From NCBI RefSeq assembly GCF_027563465.1, contig NZ_JAPFQA010000005.1:1-64000 (forward strand): 64,000 nt of DNA, read 5' to 3'. This DNA comes from Mesorhizobium qingshengii. GTDB lineage: Bacteria; Pseudomonadota; Alphaproteobacteria; Rhizobiales; Rhizobiaceae. The translations under genes and the position numbers were made by a program. Positions 1-9,323 of this stretch are shown piece after piece. The notes beneath the pieces were generated by a model, which worked only from the letters and a program-made list of their open reading frames with translations, did not search any database and had not been told where the DNA came from. Positions within the stretch are counted from its first letter, which is position 1; every line of letters begins with the position of its first letter.

Positions 1-495
1 CACTTCAATCCGGCGGTAACGCTGGTCTTTGCCTTGAAGCGGGAGATCGAGACCAATACGGCCGCGGCCTACGTCCTGGCCCAGGTCGCAGGCGGCATCG
101 TCGGCACGTTGCTGGCACACGCTATGTTCGAGCTGCCGGTGTTGCAGTTGTCTGAAACCGCGCGGACTGGAAACGGCCAATGGATCGCCGAAATTGTCGC
201 GACCTTTGGCCTGGTCTTCACCATTCTTGCCGGCCTGCGGGCTCGCCCGGACTCAATCCCGTGGCTGGTCGGGCTCTACATTACCGCCGCCTACTGGTTC
301 ACGGCATCGACCTCCTTCGCCAATCCGGCTGTCGCCATTGCGCGGGCACTGTCCAACACCTTCGCCGGAATCCGCCCTGTCGACTTGGCGGGGTTCATTG
401 TCGCCGAACTTTTAGGCGCGCTGCTTGCCATGGGTTTGGCTGCGTGGCTGCTCACCGAGGCGAAACCAATCAGACAGATGAAAGCAGCAGAATGA
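1..495 (+). CDS. aqpS: Aquaglyceroporin of arsenic operon (AqpS-like), 5' truncated by window edge
   Basis: The reading frame is open from base 1, so the N-terminus lies outside the window. Both aquaporin pore boxes are visible: HFNPAVTL at fragment residues 1-8 and FANPAVAIA around residue 108, about 105 residues apart as in the MIP family. Hydrophobic helices fill the space between. It overlaps arsC by four bases (ATGA) and arsH follows. In Sinorhizobium meliloti the same gene order uses AqpS in place of an ArsB/Acr3 pump to let arsenite leave the cell. The arsenite role is therefore inferred from context; the MIP fold is directly visible. Confidence 0.9.
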   Translation, partial: HFNPAVTLVFALKREIETNTAAAYVLAQVAGGIVGTLLAHAMFELPVLQLSETARTGNGQWIAEIVATFGLVFTILAGLRARPDSIPWLVGLYITAAYWFTASTSFANPAVAIARALSNTFAGIRPVDLAGFIVAELLGALLAMGLAAWLLTEAKPIRQMKAAE

Positions 496-914
496 CCATC
501 ACTATCTACCATAACCCAGACTGCGGCACGTCGCGCAACACGCTGGCCATCATCAGGCAATCCGGCGAGGAGCCGGAGGTGATCGAATATCTGAAGAATC
601 CGCCATCGCGGGAACGGCTCGTCGAGCTTATCGCGGCGATGGGGATGACGCCGCGCCAACTGCTCCGCGAGAAGGGCACGCCCTACGCCGAACTCAATCT
701 CGGTGATCCGAAATGGACTGACGATGAAATTCTGGATTTCATGCTGGCGCATCCGATCCTGATCAACCGGCCGATCGTCGTCAGCCCGCTCGGCGTCGTC
801 CTGGCGCGGCCGTCGGAAAAGGTGCTGGACATCCTGCCCAACCCGCAGATCGGCGCGTTCACCAAGGAGGATGGCGAGGTGGTCATAGACTCGCAAGGCA
901 AGCGCGTAGCCTGA
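492..914 (+). CDS. arsC: Arsenate reductase, glutaredoxin type (ArsC)
   Basis: A 140-residue cytoplasmic enzyme reducing arsenate to arsenite with glutathione and glutaredoxin. The N-terminal [10 protein letters not shown] signature carries the catalytic Cys11, with His7 and Arg15 spaced as in E. coli plasmid R773 ArsC. The length matches the family. The ATG at 492 overlaps the aqpS stop codon, which indicates translational coupling. The arsenite produced would exit through the adjacent AqpS-like channel. A longer in-frame reading from further upstream was rejected because it would run through aqpS. Confidence 0.95.
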
Positions 915-918
915 TCAC

Positions 919-1635
919 GTGCCCGAAGAAGCTTTGCCGAACCTGGACGAGGAACAGTTCCAGCCGATTGACCTGCAGGCGCTGCTGGACGCGCCTCGCT
1001 CAATCCACAAGCCTCGCGTGCTGATGCTCTACGGGTCGCTGCGCGAACGATCCTATTCGAGGCTCGCTACCGAAGAGGCGGCCCGTATTTTGCGTCGCTT
1101 GGGCGCCGAGGTTCGCATCTACAATCCTTCGGGCCTGCCGCTGCCGGATTCAACGTCGGTCGAACACACCAAAGTGAAGGAATTGCGGGATCTCTCGATC
1201 TGGTCGGAAGCCCAAGTTTGGTGTTCTCCCGAGCGGCATGGCGCCATGACCGCCATCATGAAGGCGCAGATTGATTGGCTGCCACTCTCATTGGGCGGCG
1301 TGCGGCCCACCCAGGGCCGGACGCTTGCCGTCATGCAGGTTTCCGGCGGCTCGCAGAGTTTCAACGCCGTCAACCAGCTGCGCATCCTCGGCCGCTGGAT
1401 GCGCATGGTCACCATCCCGAACCAGTCGTCGGTGGCAAAAGCCTTTAATGAGTTCGACGAGGCCGGCCGCATGAAACCGTCGCCCTACTACAACCGGATC
1501 GTCGATGTGATGGAGGAGCTGATGAAATTCACCTTGCTCCTGCGTGATCGATCGGCCTATCTCACGAGCCGTTACTCCGAGCGCATCGAAAGCGCGGAGG
1601 AGGTTGCCAAGCGGGTGAACCAGCGGTCGATTTGA
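919..1635 (+). CDS. arsH: Arsenical resistance protein ArsH (NADPH-dependent FMN reductase)
   Basis: A 238-residue flavodoxin-fold flavoprotein. Near the N-terminus, [10 protein letters not shown] at residues 39-48 is the FMN phosphate-binding loop typical of ArsH. Known ArsH enzymes oxidise trivalent organoarsenicals and reduce quinones. The start is GTG, four bases after the arsC stop, so it is almost certainly the third gene of the aqpS-arsC-arsH operon. An ArsR repressor would be expected upstream, outside the window. Confidence 0.95.
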
Positions 1636-1784
1636 GCCGGCTGGTTGGCGCAAACGGGACGGCGGCAGCATCGTTGTAGGTCGACTATCGGCGCCCTGAG
1701 ACGCACCTCCGTCTATGACGATCTGTAGGGGAATTCGGGTGGCATCTGGATTTCGCATCAACACGCCAGCGGCGAGATCGATCA

Positions 1785-2669
1785 ATGAGACGGCGTGACG
1801 TTCTCATCGCGACGATGCCTCCGGTGCTGTGGGCAATCGCCTACACCGTGGCGAAGCCGGCTATGGAACGCTTTCCGCCATTGTTTCTCATGAGCCTTGT
1901 CTACGCGGTGACGGCACTGGCTCTGTATCGGCCGTGGCAGCTGCGGCAAACATCGCTGTGGGCCGTGATCGCGGCAGCGACACTTGGCGCCAGCTTGCAA
2001 AGCGCGCTTATTTTCAGCGGCATCGCCCATGTCCCTGCCACCATGGCGATACTCGCTGTTCAATCCCAGGTTCCGTTCGCGGTTCTCGCAGCTTGGCTTG
2101 TCGGTCAGGAGCAGACAAACGCTCGCCGCCTGGTGGGTGTTGTGGTCGCCTTGGCGGGGGTCACGCTGATCGTTGGGCTGCCGAACTCCGTTGGTGAATC
2201 CAGTGGCCTGTTGTTGATTGTGCTTGGCACGCTCTGCTGGGGTGTTGCCCAAGCCATCATTCGCACCAAATCCCGAGATCCCGGCGCACGCCTGATGGGA
2301 ATGATGGCGGCAATTGCCGCGCCACAACTGCTGATCATGTCGCTTATTCTGGAACGTGGGCAGCAGGCAGCCATGGTCCAAGCGACCGTGTCTCAATGGT
2401 GCGCAGTTGCTGTCTTGGCGGTTGGAGGTTTCGTCGCCGCGTATTCGATCTGGTATGGCCTGCTTCGCCGACATCGCATTGATGAAATCGCCCCGTTCAT
2501 CCTCCTGATGCCGCTCTTCGGCGTGCTGACGGCACATGTGCTCCTTGGCGAGGCGATCACCCCGCTGGTCATAACTGGAGGCGCGATCATCCTCATGGGT
2601 CTCATACTTGTCGTTTTTACACCGACTGTGGATGACGCAGTGTCTGCCGAGCCGTTGCCTCCTGGATGA
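1785..2669 (+). CDS. DMT superfamily (EamA) transporter
   Basis: A 294-residue inner-membrane protein with about ten hydrophobic helices in two EamA repeats. The repeat starts include LWAIAYTVAKPAMERFPP near residue 15 and LCWGVAQAIIR near residue 152. The family exports small metabolites or amino acids, but the substrate cannot be read from sequence. It lies between arsH and arsA on the same strand, separated from arsH by about 150 bases, so it may have its own promoter. Whether it takes part in arsenic handling is unknown. Confidence 0.85.
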   Translation: MRRRDVLIATMPPVLWAIAYTVAKPAMERFPPLFLMSLVYAVTALALYRPWQLRQTSLWAVIAAATLGASLQSALIFSGIAHVPATMAILAVQSQVPFAVLAAWLVGQEQTNARRLVGVVVALAGVTLIVGLPNSVGESSGLLLIVLGTLCWGVAQAIIRTKSRDPGARLMGMMAAIAAPQLLIMSLILERGQQAAMVQATVSQWCAVAVLAVGGFVAAYSIWYGLLRRHRIDEIAPFILLMPLFGVLTAHVLLGEAITPLVITGGAIILMGLILVVFTPTVDDAVSAEPLPPG

Positions 2670-2704
2670 TGGCCGTCGTGGCTGGACCGTGTGTCACTAA
2701 CTGA

Positions 2705-2821
2705 ATGCCGGGGCAATCCATGAAGAAATTGTCCAACCCACCGCGAAAGCAGCAGTCTAGAAAGGCCGCCGTTCCTCGCCGGGTTGCCCTCGATCAAGTC
2801 CATCTGCTCGACTTGCTGTAA
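2705..2821 (+). CDS. Possible small basic protein, unrecognised
   Basis: A 38-codon ATG-to-TAA frame sits alone between the DMT transporter and arsA. It reads as a lysine/arginine-rich head (KKLSNPPRKQQSRKAA) followed by a short leucine-rich tail. There is no convincing Shine-Dalgarno sequence. I do not recognise it. It could be a remnant of a larger gene or a chance frame. Confidence 0.2.
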   Translation: MPGQSMKKLSNPPRKQQSRKAAVPRRVALDQVHLLDLL

Positions 2822-2857
2822 GCTCAATCCCAAGACGACCAGCAACTATGGACCCCC

Positions 2858-4612
2858 ATGACCCAGTTCAGCGCACTAGAGCATCCTACTCGATATCTGT
2901 TTTTCACCGGGAAGGGTGGAGTGGGCAAGACTGCGCTGAGCTGTGCGAGTGCGCTTGCCTTGGCAGATCGGGGTCTGCGCGTGCTGCTAGTCAGCACCGA
3001 TCCAGCGTCCAATCTCGACGAAATGCTCAATGTCGAGTTGTCGGATACCCCTAGACTGGTCCCAGACGTCCAAGGGCTTCTGGCGTTGAACATTGATCCG
3101 GAGGCCGCGGCAACGCAATACCGCACACGCGTGCTCGATCAGTTGGATCCCGATGCCACTGATACGGAGCGCTCGACGATCCGGGAACAGCTCTCCGGTG
3201 CCTGCACGACAGAAATCGCGGCGTTCGATGAATTCGTTGGCTTGCTGGCAGGCGATGCGCCCGGTTTCGACCACGTCATTTTCGACACTGCCCCAACTGG
3301 CCACACCCTACGGCTACTCAGCCTGCCGAAGGCGTGGACAGGTTTTCTGCATGACAACGATCGAGGAGCCTCATGCCTTGGGCCACACTCGGGCCTGAAA
3401 ATGCAGGAGCAACGTTTTCAGGAGGCTTTGCACTGCCTCGGCGATCCCGCCCGCACTTCGATAGTGCTGGTGACACGCCCCGATCAGGGCGCGATCCGCG
3501 AGGCCGCCCGGACGTCGAGTGAGCTCGATGCGCTTGGACTCTCCAACCAGTCGCTTGCCATCAACGGCATGTTTCGCGCGCAAGACAAGTCCGACGCAGT
3601 TGCCTCGGCACTCGAACAGGAGCAGGAAAACGCTCTCGCCGCGATGCCTGCTTCGCTGGCGAAGCTGCCCCGGGATGAGTTTCCGCTGCTCGGATTCGAT
3701 ATGATTGGATTGCCAGCGCTTCGCGCGCTTTTGTCGCCAGCGGCGGCGCCAGCTGTAATCGATGCTGCGGAAGCTGCACCTATCGATCTTCCTCGCCTCT
3801 CGCACCTTGTGGAGGAAATCGCACACGGCGAGAAGGGCCTCATCATGGTCATGGGCAAAGGTGGCGTCGGCAAGACAACTGTCGCCGCGGCAATCGCGGT
3901 CGGACTTGCAGAACGTGGCCATGCGGTGCATCTCACGACCACCGATCCGGCTGCTCATGTGCAGTTGGTCGTGGAAGGAGCGATGCCTGGGCTTACTGTT
4001 GATCGCATCGACCCGATCGCAGAGACGAGACGCTATATCGAGAAGATCATGTCGTCTCGCGGGCGGGATCTCGATGACGAAGGCAAGGCGTTGCTGCGAG
4101 AGGATCTCGCTTCACCATGCACCGAAGAGGTCGCGGTCTTCCATGCATTCTCGCGGGTCGTCGCGGAAGCGCGCAGCGCCTTTGTCGTGATCGACACAGC
4201 CCCTACTGGTCACACGCTTCTGCTTCTGGATGCCACCGGCGCCTACCACCGGCAAATGACACGTCATCTGGATCCCGCCGCGCCCGGGCGCGCGGTTACT
4301 CCGTTGATGCGCTTGCAGGACGCAAACTACACCCGCATCATCCTCGTGACCCTTCCTGAAACTACGCCGGTCTCCGAGGCAGGCGCGTTGCAAGACGATC
4401 TCCGCCGCGCAGGCATCGAGCCCTATGGCTGGATTATCAACAAGAGCATGATCGCATCTGGCACCCACGATCCCCTCTTGCGCTCAAGGCTGAAGGGAGA
4501 AAGAGCGCAGATTGATCGTGTCCTGGCGGCCTACGCGAAGCGGGTATATCTGCTTGGATTTCGCACCACGCCGCCGGTTGGGCTGGGCGAACTCAAGAAC
4601 CTTGCGAGCTAG
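2858..4612 (+). CDS. arsA: Arsenite-stimulated ATPase ArsA, tandem two-domain form
   Basis: At 584 residues this is the bacterial double-ATPase form. Two P-loops GKGGVGKT occur at residues 18-25 and 333-340, and each half carries a DTAPTGHT signature. The three metalloid-binding cysteines of E. coli ArsA have counterparts at Cys116 (SGACTTE), Cys173 (GASCLG) and Cys421 (ASPCTEE), so arsenite activation looks intact. ArsA normally energises ArsB, with ArsD as chaperone. Neither is in view here; the partner may lie outside the window. Confidence 0.95.
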   Translation: MTQFSALEHPTRYLFFTGKGGVGKTALSCASALALADRGLRVLLVSTDPASNLDEMLNVELSDTPRLVPDVQGLLALNIDPEAAATQYRTRVLDQLDPDATDTERSTIREQLSGACTTEIAAFDEFVGLLAGDAPGFDHVIFDTAPTGHTLRLLSLPKAWTGFLHDNDRGASCLGPHSGLKMQEQRFQEALHCLGDPARTSIVLVTRPDQGAIREAARTSSELDALGLSNQSLAINGMFRAQDKSDAVASALEQEQENALAAMPASLAKLPRDEFPLLGFDMIGLPALRALLSPAAAPAVIDAAEAAPIDLPRLSHLVEEIAHGEKGLIMVMGKGGVGKTTVAAAIAVGLAERGHAVHLTTTDPAAHVQLVVEGAMPGLTVDRIDPIAETRRYIEKIMSSRGRDLDDEGKALLREDLASPCTEEVAVFHAFSRVVAEARSAFVVIDTAPTGHTLLLLDATGAYHRQMTRHLDPAAPGRAVTPLMRLQDANYTRIILVTLPETTPVSEAGALQDDLRRAGIEPYGWIINKSMIASGTHDPLLRSRLKGERAQIDRVLAAYAKRVYLLGFRTTPPVGLGELKNLAS

Positions 4613-5119
4613 CAACACAACGCGGGCGAAGATTCGCCAGCAACGCCGACGATGTCGAACGCAGTTCAAAGCGCCGCAAGAAAAGAGATGCTGTGCTGAT
4701 CGAGATGCATCGAACCGCGAGACGAACTGACGGTAGTCGCCAGCAAGTGGATACCATTCCAGCCTCCCTGATGGGCGAGGTCAGCTGGCGCGGGACCTGT
4801 GTTGCTTACGCGCCATTCTGCCCCAGATTGCGCTTCCTCGCGATCCGCCGCAACAGGCCGTCAATTCCGTATCGAACGATGCGGCCGCTCCGTTCAGGGA
4901 ACGCGGATCGCTCGTTACATGGGTCATTTTGACGGACGTCACAATGTTACAAAATGTCTTATAAGTTATTGATTTTATTTATGTAACCCAGAGTTCAATC
5001 CTCTCTGGCAACACCGCAGAGTAGACCAGAACTTGAGCAAGAATGCTTCAAATCGGCCTGATTGATGGCTGTAACAATTCGTGAAAATAGCCCATCGACT
5101 TATTGCTATAACCTCAAAG
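4613..5119. other. Intergenic region between arsA and the integration module
   Basis: About 500 bases without a credible gene. The right part (about 4925-4990) is markedly more AT-rich than its surroundings. It contains a small inverted repeat, CCAGAG at 4988-4993 and CTCTGG at 5003-5008. AT-rich DNA ahead of a tyrosine integrase is where promoter and arm-type recombinase or excisionase sites usually lie, but no specific site can be proven by eye. Confidence 0.5.
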
Positions 5120-5422
5120 ATGTTGAGGTTGCTCACCCCCACCCAAGCTGCTGAATTTCTCGCTGTCACTCCGAAGCACTTGCTCGAGCTGACGAACGAA
5201 GGCGCTGTGCGCTGGGTGAACATTGGTCTTGAAGGCAAGAGGCCCACCCGTCGCTATAGACAAGACGACCTTGCCGAGTTCATTGCAAAGCGGAGCCAAA
5301 AGGCATGCCGGTATACCGAAAGCACGGCAAACCAGAATACACCTATGATTTCCAATTTCTCGGTCGTCGATTTTCCGGTCCCACGGGCACGAGCAACAAG
5401 CGCCAGGCGGAACGCATCCTAG
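5120..5422 (+). CDS. Helix-turn-helix protein, excisionase-like
   Basis: A 100-residue protein with a MerR/excisionase-type winged helix at residues 4-55 (LLTPTQAAEFLAV, then a wing, then RRYRQDDLAEFI). The gene overlaps the following integrase by 118 bases in a different frame. Such tight pairing is usual for Xis/Int or Alp-like regulators of integrative elements. ATG 5120 was chosen; a GTG at 5081 is an alternative. Its role in excision is inferred from the neighbour. Confidence 0.7.
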   Translation: MLRLLTPTQAAEFLAVTPKHLLELTNEGAVRWVNIGLEGKRPTRRYRQDDLAEFIAKRSQKACRYTESTANQNTPMISNFSVVDFPVPRARATSARRNAS

Positions 5423-6417
5423 AGCAAAAGCGGCAGGAAGCGCGGAGCAAGCTGAAGGCGGCTGCAAGCTTCACTGCCGAAGGACCAATGACACTTGAGA
5501 TAGCTGCTTCCCGCTATTGGCTGGAGGTGGGGCAGCACCTGGCCAATGCCGATAACTACTACCGCTTTCTCGGGTGGCTCCTCGATCATTTTGGCAAGCA
5601 TGTCACGCTGGACCGGATCTCGGACTCCTTGGTGGCTGCAATGGTATCGCAGAGGCGCAGCGACGGCGTCAGCAACGCCACTGTCAATCGCACCGCTACA
5701 GTTCCGCTCCGCGGCATCATGACCCGAGCGAAGAAGACCTGGAAGGTCCCGGTCGGTGATATTGACTGGAGCAGGCATATGCTCAAAGAGCCGAAGGAAC
5801 GCGTTCGTGAAGCCAGCCAAGACGAAGAGAAGCGCCTGCTGAATGCGATGCGCGACGACTATGCACCCGCTGTTCGGTTTGCCCTCCTAACCGGTTGCCG
5901 TCGCATGGAGATCGTCGACCTCACGTGGTCCCGTGTTGACTTCTTTGGCAGGATGATCACCGTCACTGGCAAGGGCGATAAGACGAGGGTCCTGCCGATG
6001 ACAGACGCGGTGCATGCCCTCTTGTGGGCTCTGAAGGACCACAATCCGACGTCGGTCTTCACCTACGTTGCCCGAAGAACAAACAAACGTCTCAAGCTCG
6101 TCAAGGGAACCCGCTACCCAATCACGATGGAAGGCTTCAAGACAGCCTGGCGACGCTACAGAGATAAATCAGGCGTGGAGAACTTCCGGTTCCACGACAC
6201 GCGCCATACAGCGGCGACGAGAACCCTGCGCACCGGCAACATGAAGATCGTGCAGAGGATGCTGGGCCACGAAGACATCACCACCACGGCGAAATACGCC
6301 CATGCGATGATCGAAGATATGCGCATTGCCATGGAGGCAGCAAACCACACCGGAAGTCACACCGGACGAGGAAAGAAAGTCACTAGCGAACTGAAAGATA
6401 AGAAGAAATCAGCCTGA
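5305..6417 (+). CDS. Tyrosine recombinase / phage-type integrase
   Basis: A 370-residue integrase. The catalytic set is complete: Arg199 in LTGCRRMEI, His297 and Arg300 in FRFHDTRHTAA, His322 in MLGHEDITTT, and Tyr331 in KYAHA. The N-terminal part looks like an arm-binding plus SAM-like core-binding region. Its stop codon lies only a few bases from a truncated tRNA-Pro gene. Integrases usually sit at the edge of the element they move, so this gene marks a boundary, with the arsenic genes on the element side. Confidence 0.93.
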   Translation: MPVYRKHGKPEYTYDFQFLGRRFSGPTGTSNKRQAERILEQKRQEARSKLKAAASFTAEGPMTLEIAASRYWLEVGQHLANADNYYRFLGWLLDHFGKHVTLDRISDSLVAAMVSQRRSDGVSNATVNRTATVPLRGIMTRAKKTWKVPVGDIDWSRHMLKEPKERVREASQDEEKRLLNAMRDDYAPAVRFALLTGCRRMEIVDLTWSRVDFFGRMITVTGKGDKTRVLPMTDAVHALLWALKDHNPTSVFTYVARRTNKRLKLVKGTRYPITMEGFKTAWRRYRDKSGVENFRFHDTRHTAATRTLRTGNMKIVQRMLGHEDITTTAKYAHAMIEDMRIAMEAANHTGSHTGRGKKVTSELKDKKKSA

Positions 6418-6422
6418 GCAAC

Positions 6423-6466
6423 CTTGCCCCCCAGTCAAGTGCGCTACCGGGCTGCGCTACACTCCG
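6423..6466 (-). pseudogene. 5' half of tRNA-Pro(GGG), interrupted in the anticodon arm
   Basis: On the minus strand from 6466 leftward the sequence reads as a proline tRNA: acceptor strand CGGAGTG, D arm GCGC...GCGC, then CTTGA and an anticodon loop with GGG at 6432-6430. The 3' anticodon strand reads GCAAG instead of the expected TCAAG, and no T arm or 3' acceptor strand follows. The integrase stop codon follows at once. This is best explained as the attachment junction of the integrated element. The matching 3' half should lie beyond the left edge of the window. Confidence 0.8.
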
Positions 6467-6522
6467 GACCGGTCGCGATGTATCGTGATAACCCCGCTCG
6501 GGTCAACCGAATTCGGCGACTT

Positions 6523-7791
6523 TTATCTTGCTGCGATTGCGGGTGCGGGCGAACCCGGCAATGCCGGCCGCAGCAGCCGCTGATGCCGGTATTCCAGCGC
6601 GATTGCGCCCCAGATCAGCCCGAGCAGCAGGTAGACATGGCGCCAGTGATCGATGTCGATGAAGGTGCCGAGCCCGATATTGCCGATGAAGGCGACGTAG
6701 GCGCACAGGAGATAGGGTTGCCACGGCCGGTCGCGCAGCAGGATGCGGAAACCGGCTGCTATCGTCCAGGCGACGAGCGTCAGGAACGACACGAAACCGA
6801 GCCAGCCATAGTCCATCAGCATCTTCAGCCAGATGTCGTGGGTGTCTTCGCCGAAGATCGTGCCGAAGACCAGCGGGCCGATACCGAACGGGTGCTCGAG
6901 CGCCATCTGGAAGCCGATCGCGTAGCGGGCGAAGCGGCCGAGTCGCGCCGTGTCGTAGCTCTGTTCGAGATGGGCGCGGTTGGAAAACATCTCCGCCACG
7001 CCGGGCAGTTGCAAGATGACGATCATGGCGATGACGAGCAGCGCCAGTGCCGCGATCGTCATCACCACCACGCGCAGCCGGAGCATGCCGCTGGCGCTCT
7101 GCAGGAACAGGCAGCCGGTGAGCAGGATGGCCGAGACGGCGAACATGCCCCAGGCGCCGCGCGAGAAGGAGAAGAAGATGCCGGCGGTGATGATCAGCAG
7201 CGGCACCGCCAGCAGCGGCATGCGCGGGATCGGTCCGGTCAGCAGCAGGTAGAGCAGATAGATGCCAGGCAGCACGAGGAATGGGCCGAAGACGTTCGGG
7301 TCCTGGAAGGCGCCGGCGGCGCGGTCGTATTTGGTGAACATCTCCGCGCCCGGGAAGGCATGGAAATAGCCGGCAATGCCGAGCAGCGAGGTGATCACCG
7401 CCGACACGACATAGGCGAAGAAGATCAGCCGGTAGAGGCTGGGTTGCGCCGCCGTCACCGAGGCGAAGAACACGGCGGTGAAGGCGAGAAACAGCGAAAC
7501 GGAGAGATAGAGCGGGGTGTTGGCGAGGTCCGACATTTGCGTCATGGCGATCATGCCGCCGATGTTCATCGTCACCAGCAGCACCAGCAGCGGCAGTGCC
7601 GCACGCGAAATCCTCAGGCCGAAGAGCGCCCAGATGGCGATCAGCCCCGCCATGTAGAGTTCATAAGGCGCCGGTTCGCTGATGACGAAGCCGGACAGGA
7701 ATATGCCGAGGAAAACCGCCGCCGATGAGATCAGCGAGATCAGCTTGGCGTTGACCGCGCCCAGTGGCAGCTCGTGGGAAATCGCGCTCAA
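6523..7791 (-). CDS. O-antigen ligase / exopolysaccharide polymerase-like membrane protein
   Basis: A 422-residue polytopic protein with about ten to twelve helices and a large periplasmic loop containing HLEQSYDTARLGRF and a conserved HDIWLK segment, as in Wzy/WaaL (Wzy_C) proteins. The TTG start at 7791 overlaps the stop of the upstream priming transferase (TTGA), implying coupling. It is likely to polymerise lipid-linked repeat units in the periplasm. A longer in-frame reading to the right was rejected because it runs through the neighbour in another frame. Confidence 0.82.
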   Translation of the reverse strand: MSAISHELPLGAVNAKLISLISSAAVFLGIFLSGFVISEPAPYELYMAGLIAIWALFGLRISRAALPLLVLLVTMNIGGMIAMTQMSDLANTPLYLSVSLFLAFTAVFFASVTAAQPSLYRLIFFAYVVSAVITSLLGIAGYFHAFPGAEMFTKYDRAAGAFQDPNVFGPFLVLPGIYLLYLLLTGPIPRMPLLAVPLLIITAGIFFSFSRGAWGMFAVSAILLTGCLFLQSASGMLRLRVVVMTIAALALLVIAMIVILQLPGVAEMFSNRAHLEQSYDTARLGRFARYAIGFQMALEHPFGIGPLVFGTIFGEDTHDIWLKMLMDYGWLGFVSFLTLVAWTIAAGFRILLRDRPWQPYLLCAYVAFIGNIGLGTFIDIDHWRHVYLLLGLIWGAIALEYRHQRLLRPALPGSPAPAIAAR

Positions 7792-9323
7792 TAGGCGTTT
7801 TCCGTGTTCAGCAACCGGATCGGCGTCAGGAGCAGGATCCGCAAGTCGAACAGCAGCGACCAGTTCTCGATGTAATAGAGGTCGTACTCGGTTCGCATGC
7901 GGATCTTCTCGTTGGTGTCCATCTCGCCGCGCCAGCCATTGATCTGCGCCCAGCCGGTGACGCCGGGCTTGACCTTGTGGCGCGCGAAATAGCCGTCGAC
8001 CACTTCGTTGTAGAGGAGATTGTGCGACTGCGCGGCGATGGCGTGCGGGCGCGGACCGACAAGCGACAGCGAGCCGAGCAGCGAGTTGAAGAATTGCGGC
8101 AGTTCGTCGATCGAGGTCTTGCGGATGAAGCGGCCGACGCGGGTGACGCGCGGATCGTTCCTGGTCACCGTCTGCTTGGCGGTCGGGTCCGACCGGTCCG
8201 TGTACATCGAGCGGAATTTGTAGACCTCGATGATCTCGTTGTTGAAGCCGTGCCGCTTCTGGTGAAACAGCACGGGTCCCTTGCTGTCGAGCTTGATGGC
8301 AATGGCGGTCGCCAGCATCACCGGCGAGAACACGACGATGCCGATGAGGCTGAAGACGATGTCGAAGGCACGCTTGGCGACCGAATCCCAGTCGTTGATC
8401 GGCTTGTCGAAGATGTCGAGCATCGGCACCGAGCCGATATAGGAATAGGCGCGCGGACGAAATTGCAGCGCATTTGAATGTGCCGACAGGCGGATATCGA
8501 CCGGCAGCACCCACAGCTTCTTCAACAGCTGCAGCACGCGCGATTCGGCCGTCAGCGGCAGCGACACGATCAGCATGTCGATGCGGGCGATGCGGGCGAA
8601 TTCGATCAGTTCGGAAATGGTGCCGAGCTTGGGATAGCCGGCGACGATGGGCGGCGAGCGCTTGTCGCCGCGATCATCGAAGATGCCGCAGATACGAATG
8701 TCGTTGTAGGGCTGCTTTTCGACGGAGCGGATCAGGATTTCCGCTGTCTTGCCGCCGCCGACGATGACAGCGCGCCGCTCCATGCGGCCGTCGCGCGCCC
8801 AGCGCCGGATCAGCTTCGACATCACCAGCCTGAGGCCGAAGATGAGGATGAAACCGACGACGAACCAGGTCCCGAACAGCAGGCGCGAATAATCTTCCGA
8901 CATCTTCGTGGCGAAGGCAGTCAACGCCATCAGGGCGAAGGTGCCGGCCCAGACCAGCAGGACGCGGCCAAAATTGGCGATCGGCCGCATCAAGGCAACA
9001 ACCTGGTAGCAGTCGGTGACGTCGAGCAGCACCACGGCAAGGAAAGACGTGGCGGCAATCGCCAGCGGGTACTGCCAGGCGAGATAGTTGAAGAACCCGA
9101 CATAGTAGAAATAGACGCTGAGCCCGGACAGGAACAGCAGCCCGAATTCGACCATGCGCAGGACGCCGCTGACCATGATCGGCGACATCGTATCGCGCCT
9201 GTACTGTGACGCGACCTGGCGGGCGACGTCGTTCATGCCGCCGGGCGCATCGCCGTCGGTCGGGGCGTCGAATTTACGCACCGCCTCTGCTGAAAAGCGG
9301 TGCGCGGGGTCGATCTCGTTCAT
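7788..9323 (-). CDS. Undecaprenyl-phosphate sugar phosphotransferase (priming glycosyltransferase)
   Basis: A 511-residue WcaJ/PssA-type enzyme. Several N-terminal helices are followed by a Rossmann-like CoA-binding-fold segment ([12 protein letters not shown]). The C-terminal bacterial sugar transferase domain carries [21 protein letters not shown] and VGPRPHA. The enzyme transfers the first sugar phosphate to undecaprenyl phosphate at the inner membrane and so starts repeat-unit assembly. ATG 9323 was chosen; a TTG at 9338 is possible. The sugar (glucose or galactose) cannot be decided from sequence. Confidence 0.92.

Follow-up and report, generated by a model that had tools for sequence, protein, structure and literature searches.

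The window analysed here is the first 64 kb (64,000 nucleotides) of contig C45 (NZ_JAPFQA010000005.1) of Mesorhizobium qingshengii, whose genome assembly (GCF_027563465.1, G000 in our set) comprises 6.5 Mb in 63 contigs and is scored 100% complete. Near its left end, a tyrosine integrase gene abuts a split tRNA-Pro(GGG) gene, and we interpret this region as the probable right end, on the integrase side, of a genomic island that has integrated here. The features at the junction are given below. The hexamers of the promoters, here and in later sections, were named by eye, and their promoter status is predicted.

5120 to 5422, plus strand: small helix-turn-helix (HTH) open reading frame (ORF) overlapping the integrase gene, probable excisionase (recombination directionality factor, RDF); PF12728, E = 2.7e-7; phrog_66, excisionase and transcriptional regulator, E = 2.2e-4
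5305 to 6417, plus strand: tyrosine integrase of 370 amino acids, no internal stop; Pfam PF00589, E = 1.7e-29, residues 172-334; phrog_1, integrase, E = 8.5e-56
6418 to 6427, unstranded: element-derived arm from the integrase stop to the core; 6422-6427 resembles tRNA positions 40-45 (5/6)
6428 to 6434, unstranded: 7-bp core CCCCCAG (plus strand), equal to the anticodon loop (tRNA positions 39-33); putative crossover or overlap region
6428 to 6466, minus strand: positions 1-39 of tRNA-Pro(GGG), the host 5′ part in displaced form, read without mismatch and adjoining its own chromosomal promoter
6478 to 6506, minus strand: chromosomal promoter-like sequence A (TTGACC, 17 bp, ATACAT), conserved in relatives; only the 5′ part now lies behind it
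6526 to 7770, minus strand: O-antigen-ligase-like gene (Wzy_C) in the chromosomal right flank, outside the element; PF04932, E = 8.2e-13; within a longer ORF, 6523-8514

A split tRNA-Pro(GGG) gene and its empty site

The match to tRNA-Pro(GGG) runs from 6466 to 6428, over 39 nt with 0 mismatches, and takes in the whole anticodon loop. The next base, position 40 of the tRNA, is altered (G for T, window 6427), positions 41-45 agree (6426-6422), and the sequence diverges beyond them. The TGA stop codon of the integrase gene (6415-6417) is located 10 bp short of the core, and no tRNA was called by ARAGORN at the split site. Direct reading therefore confirmed the claim of the initial annotation that the minus strand from 6466 carries the 5′ half of tRNA-Pro(GGG) followed by divergence, and the split tRNA is real. 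Two details had to be revised. The break, which had been placed inside the anticodon stem, falls where the anticodon loop ends on its 3′ side. The integrase, which does abut the split tRNA, starts at 5305, and the first part of the annotated span, 5120-5304, belongs to the separate HTH/excisionase-like ORF. Residues R199, H297, R300, H322, and Y331 of the integrase were invariant in 7 aligned members, and we take them to be the catalytic set of the R..HxxR..H..Y motif.

For comparison, a set of 146 Mesorhizobium genomes was used, with the M. qingshengii genome included, and the stretch of promoter and tRNA was searched in 119 of them. It was matched in all 119. Judged by match ranges, 95 genomes (M. 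qingshengii included) cover promoter A, 23 cover the tRNA part only, and one (G014) matched only weakly. The locus was read in the 29 relatives with the best matches, and in each of them a closely similar promoter A leads into a complete 77-nt tRNA-Pro(GGG), so the split tRNA is not a chance resemblance. One relative, G010, is the sister of the M. qingshengii genome (SH-aLRT 100) in an rpoB tree, a quick single-gene tree of 80 of the 146 genomes. Its tRNA-Pro(GGG) is intact, the 6.7 kb that lead up to the tRNA on its left flank are 94% identical to M. qingshengii contig C14, and the gene next to the tRNA shares 98% protein identity with the O-antigen-ligase-like gene of the window. By this sequence comparison, G010 carries the empty site. 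Besides it, five relatives contain a rebuilt tRNA together with a displaced promoter-A 5′ part, as described below.

In the M. qingshengii assembly, 44 tRNA matches above the cut-off were obtained, among them intact tRNA-Pro(CGG) and tRNA-Pro(TGG). None of the 44 is an intact tRNA-Pro(GGG), whose count is zero; for one match (C8:55993-56063) the anticodon was left unsettled by ARAGORN ("tg"). The 3′ half of tRNA-Pro(GGG), which was expected elsewhere in the genome, was found at the very ends of contigs C14, the chromosomal left flank, and C31. Both contigs terminate on the last base of the 7-bp core. When the end of C14 was joined to the window from 6435 onward, a tRNA identical to that of G010 was restored, and the end of C31 joined likewise gave the same tRNA. 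A second 5′ half, also expected, was not found in this assembly; the search returned only weaker matches, and the best two were the other two tRNA-Pro genes.

A separate observation concerns contig C8, where two adjoining low-scoring tRNA-like matches are present at G000:C8:55919-56063 (L074). One was called as tRNA-Leu(TAG) and the other is the match with the two-base anticodon "tg". The pair is possibly element-borne or decayed.

Rebuilding of the tRNA gene in relatives and, probably, in M. qingshengii

The integrase was detected at E ≤ 1e-80, the threshold for calling it present, in 7 of the 146 genomes, that of M. qingshengii included. The window enzyme is 89% identical to that of M. waimense (G053) and 85% identical to that of Mesorhizobium sp. 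NFR06 (G047). In both relatives the integrase gene lies beside a displaced 5′ part, with a closely similar arm at the core, and an intact tRNA-Pro(GGG) is located 26.7 kb (G053) and 61.7 kb (G047) away. This distant tRNA consists of a different promoter, B (CTTGC ... TATAGGGC ... CGCGGTC), an element-borne 5′ half, and the host 3′ half. The window is shared with G053 from 5105 to the chromosomal flank at 84% and with G047 from 5070 at 81%. The stretch common to all three comprises the excisionase-like ORF, whose frame is open beside the integrase in both relatives, the integrase gene, and the arm. Before 5070, no DNA match to the G053 or G047 element was found except an 81-bp noncoding one in G047. 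On this comparison, the three elements have a recombination module in common and differ in cargo.

Displaced promoter-A 5′ parts together with an intact promoter-B tRNA were also found in M. ventifaucium (G118), Mesorhizobium sp. LSJC280B00 (G094), and G043. The last has no integrase at E ≤ 1e-80, and its mutated promoter-A 5′ part is 1.45 kb from the intact B-type tRNA. Altogether, 4 of the 6 other integrase-bearing genomes (G053, G047, G118, and G094) have the integrase at rebuilt tRNA-Pro(GGG) islands, and a comparison of elements showed that their end is conserved over a stretch of 105-190 bp on the upstream side of the core.

A mechanism consistent with these data is as follows. The tyrosine integrase would have recombined the attachment site of the island with tRNA-Pro(GGG), with strand exchange presumably within the 7-bp anticodon loop. 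The host promoter and 5′ part would stay beside the integrase gene, and the host 3′ half would be moved to the far end of the island. There, the island would contribute a new 5′ half together with a promoter of its own, giving an intact tRNA whose front is element DNA and whose back is the DNA beyond. Excision may involve the excisionase-like ORF. Four parts of this scheme are observed: the gene is split, the sister genome has the empty site, C14 ends in the 3′ half, and relatives show the far-end layout. The same far end in M. qingshengii and the exact points of strand exchange are deduced from these sequences. We consider it very probable that an island is integrated at the split tRNA-Pro(GGG) and that the gene is rebuilt at the far end by an element promoter and 5′ half. 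This agrees with the overall interpretation in the initial annotation, which left two outcomes for the tRNA: rebuilding by an element-borne 5′ half, or loss. Rebuilding was borne out in the relatives, and in M. qingshengii the far junction sits in an assembly gap.

Several points weigh against this interpretation. With the far end in the gap, the tRNA may have been lost. When the far end from G047 was used to search the M. qingshengii genome, no homologous contig end was obtained. Save for 81 bp, window 1-5069 has no DNA in common with the elements of G053 and G047, so the far end is deduced from the integrase module only. The five rebuilt relatives are silent on the frequency of loss because they were recognised partly by having two 5′ halves. 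In G118, the integrase gene is at the restored-tRNA end, and the integrases of G005 and G021 (53-54% identical) lie hundreds of kb from tRNA-Pro(GGG). Among the 42 classified integrase loci of named genomes described below, 12 are of the opposite (3′-half) type and 8 have no clear tRNA.

The strongest alternative is that the island destroyed tRNA-Pro(GGG) without rebuilding it and that tRNA-Pro(TGG), perhaps with a modified wobble base, or a complete element-carried tRNA covers its function. In enteric bacteria, tRNA-Pro(GGG) is dispensable. The genome, scored 100% complete, contains no intact GGG tRNA, and its Pro-TGG and Pro-CGG genes are intact. For two Sinorhizobium meliloti prophages, one report describes disruption of tRNA-Leu and carriage of a similar tRNA (PMC11476347). 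Against loss, the gene is rebuilt in the four relatives with a related integrase at the same tRNA, and contigs break off on the core itself, just where the junction is missing, so the absence of a GGG tRNA from the assembly is unsurprising. We regard loss as improbable; rebuilding appears the likelier outcome in M. qingshengii because the relatives show a rebuilt gene.

It is far less probable still that an assembly error created the junction in C45 and that the tRNA is really intact. The region is repetitive, with the 3′ half at two contig ends, which speaks for such an error; the same junction with a closely similar arm is nevertheless present in two relatives, and similar junctions occur in several other genera. 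Fragments of tRNAs are common in genomes, and the one here could be a degenerate pseudogene beside an unrelated integrase, with no attachment site; this can practically be dismissed, given that all 39 nt match, that promoter and flank are the native ones, that C14 carries the corresponding 3′ half, and that G010 has the empty site, and given the restoration of a tRNA identical to that of G010 when the flanks are joined.

Two layouts in the genus deserve separate mention. In G118 (L116, L117), the displaced 5′ part is 67 kb off and is followed by the arm sequence that adjoins the integrase gene in G094; only one such integrase is listed in G118. This layout suggests that the G118 element is rearranged or composite. 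In G065 (L121:8702, L121:11403, L122:8675-8751), three tRNA-Pro(GGG) 3′ halves are present within ~20 kb, one of them in an intact gene. These are tandem elements of the usual 3′-half type at the same tRNA.

The integrase clade and a possible promoter turnover

In named genomes, 78 integrase loci were found, and the best-matching 42 (L177-L217, L225) were classified. A tRNA 5′ fragment faces the integrase in 18 of the 42. It ends at position 38 or 39 in 12 of these 18 and at 41-45 in the others; in two loci (L191, L213) it is more than 600 bp from the integrase gene. Seven loci have a 3′ fragment, which starts at position 33 in 3 of the 7 (5 of the 7 by blastn; range 30-44). The tRNA is intact with its 5′ end towards the integrase in 4 loci and with its 3′ end towards it in 5. 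With 5′ fragments usually ending at 38-39 and 3′ fragments usually starting at 33, the region of overlap would be the 7-base anticodon loop. The bearers of 5′ fragments at tRNA-Pro include, among others, Mesorhizobium, Shinella, Jiella, Aurantimonas, Nitratireductor, Devosia, Brucella, Pseudochrobactrum, and Oricola; in two Sphingomonas the fragment is of tRNA-Val. In the integrase tree, the clade of the window enzyme has 22 rows, 20 of the 5′-half and 2 of the 3′ type (SH-aLRT 90), and the support of an inner fork of 21 rows is 97. Three changes of type suffice when unclear rows are not counted, with a long-branch warning for L217 and L194.

Relatives of the integrase are also encoded on 46 IMG/VR viral contigs, 38 of which extend at least 30 bp behind the gene. 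Among these 38, a 5′ fragment facing the integrase was found in 10, a sense 3′ fragment in 8, an antisense 3′ fragment in 1, and nothing clear in 14. The remaining 5 gave a sense match, aligned over the full tRNA in 4 (not confirmed by ARAGORN) and over the front part in 1. One viral contig, IMGVR_UViG_2706794521_000001 (67,892 bp; L366/L370), has the integrase at one end and, at the opposite end, a tRNA end with promoter B like that of G094. Its size and sequence suggest that it is the G094 element, so part of the integrase clade may drive prophages. A tRNA-Pro 5′ end also faces the integrase in Chelatococcus (L194, called intact by ARAGORN) and, by alignment only, in two viral contigs from the environment (L404/L405), which suggests a 5′-half mode in more distant hosts.

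Within Mesorhizobium, promoter B was found in 28 of the 146 genomes with 3 mismatches allowed. Five of the 28 have a displaced promoter-A 5′ part elsewhere. It was not found in the other 23, here called B-only, of which 18 were searched genome-wide and 5 only in the fetched stretch. Genomes with promoter B are scattered over the rpoB tree. The 21 B-only genomes in it need 13 changes, at least 8 of them forced by well-supported branches, and a single B-only grouping was rejected (approximately unbiased (AU) test, p = 3e-81) on this quick one-gene tree.

For 20 of the 23 B-only loci, the flanks were read. In 17 of these 20, the O-antigen-ligase gene is found 0.18-7.5 kb upstream, as compared with ~60 bp in the window; in two it is on the 3′ side and in one outside the stretch. 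A YcaO-TfuA-cyclase block fills the space in between in G026, G036, and G136; it is collinear with the interior of the G053 element and identical to it at 75% over 5.1 kb and 79-80% over 1.7-1.8 kb. A promoter-A remnant clearly above the shuffled control was obtained only for G100, and those of G129 and G048 were marginal. The cargo in the three loci and the remnant in G100 fit islands that would have decayed after handing over their promoter, and the number of switches required on the rpoB tree points the same way. Other results argue against extending this reading. No integrase gene was found near the tRNA within the fetched stretch in any of the 20 loci, and 17 of them have no long cargo match to the compared elements. 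In other genera of the family, B-like promoters are frequent, and of 30 loci listed from 148 matching genomes only 2, from one genus, were A-like by eye. Some B loci may thus be ancestral, and homologous recombination could also have spread the B type. The claim that all B-only genomes are island scars was rejected in this blanket form, given the B-like promoters of other genera, the lack of a nearby integrase, and the remnant in G100 only.

Contig C31 of M. qingshengii (L100:1-11170) corresponds to a second, compact and phage-like element. In 11,170 bp it encodes a second tyrosine integrase, an O-like replication initiator, an HK97-type major head protein, a NotI-like restriction enzyme, a C5 cytosine methylase, and Vsr, with the tRNA-Pro 3′ half at its end. 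We presume it to resemble a capsid-encoding phage satellite with restriction-modification cargo. At E ≤ 1e-60 its integrase was found in only 1 of the 146 genomes, its own, which leaves no relatives for comparison of junctions. C31 probably sits between C14 and the arsenic-resistance (ars) island. The simplest order would be C14 3′ half / C31 ... C31 3′ half / ars-island 5′ half ... integrase / host 5′ part. If C31 is at this locus, the only complete tRNA would consist of two element-borne halves.

We tentatively propose, with slightly less than even confidence, that the promoter and front half of tRNA-Pro(GGG) have been replaced repeatedly in Mesorhizobium by mobile elements that enter on the 5′ side and decay while their promoter persists as the sole one of the gene, and that the M. 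qingshengii gene has been hit from both sides and stitched from two unrelated elements with no host half.

Comparison with known systems and cargo of the island

Integration into bacterial tRNA genes is said to keep the original promoter with very few exceptions, and this alphaproteobacterial integrase clade mostly does the reverse. In Rhizobium phage 16-3, attB is located at tRNA-Pro(CGG); this integration is also site-specific in a rhizobial tRNA-Pro and differs in using the 3′ end and another anticodon. The Islander survey lists a 5′ fragment in 159 of 3919 islands and an anticodon-centred site in 2083 (PMC4383910). The window element shares with these islands the tyrosine integrase, the split tRNA, the displaced 5′ fragment, and the putative anticodon-loop crossover. 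It differs in that its own restored end is in a gap, while in the relatives the replacement promoter is readable and decayed copies persist. The element thus belongs to a known, uncommon kind, the 5′-fragment island, and its evolutionary footprint is unusual. Integration by pTN3-like archaeal integrases leaves the tRNA expressed from element DNA, a situation that the review describes as seldom encountered in bacteria (PMC8371274). The case reported here concerns a bacterium, integration leaves the integrase gene whole, and in this subtype the new promoter is at the end away from it. Mesorhizobium integrative and conjugative elements (ICEs) adjoin tRNA-Pro, and one carries putative arsenic-resistance genes (PMC8627217). 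The genus and the amino-acid class of the tRNA are the same here; a scan of 10 ORFs in each of the G053 and G047 elements (20 in total) turned up neither a relaxase nor a type IV secretion family, and most of the M. qingshengii element lies beyond the contig. The Sinorhizobium meliloti prophages likewise integrate in the middle of a rhizobial tRNA gene, tRNA-Leu. There, a separate tRNA gene carried by the element reportedly compensates, whereas here half a gene is supplied, as seen in the relatives (PMC11476347). In the portions of the literature covered by our search, we found no description of the 5′-half habit of this integrase clade or of the repeated change of promoter.

One genus here lines up a complete island, a shrunken or integrase-less island, and a bare element end before the tRNA. 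It is a tangible example of how a translation gene may come under the control of mobile DNA, and the effect of a promoter swap on tRNA supply becomes testable. It also illustrates that a draft assembly can seem to lack a tRNA that is merely hidden at an attachment site.

On the element side of the window, the following genes precede the recombination module.

34 to 495, plus strand: ORF of the aquaporin family (MIP), close to the start of the contig; PF00230, E = 6e-10, matched over profile positions 80-151 of 222, the N-terminal part lying outside the match
492 to 914, plus strand: arsenate reductase, ArsC family; PF03960, E = 2e-20
919 to 1635, plus strand: NADPH-dependent FMN reductase, presumably ArsH-like; PF03358, E = 1.2e-30
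1785 to 2669, plus strand: EamA-family transporter; PF00892, E = 6.9e-27
2858 to 4612, plus strand: duplicated ArsA-type ATPase; PF02374, E = 1.8e-87, two stretches

No phage structural genes were recognised among the scanned ORFs of window 1-5104. In 8 relatives whose promoter-A tRNA is intact, the DNA to the left of tRNA-Pro, to which the search was confined, gave no match to the ars cargo; in two of the 8 (G028, G057), extra DNA separates the tRNA from the C14-like flank. These results support the view in the initial annotation that the element extends to the left through the arsenic genes. The 81-bp noncoding match mentioned above, window 4922-5002, lies upstream of the excisionase-like ORF and the integrase gene. 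It is 85% identical to a site in the G047 element ~6 kb inside its far end and is possibly a regulatory or arm-type repeat.
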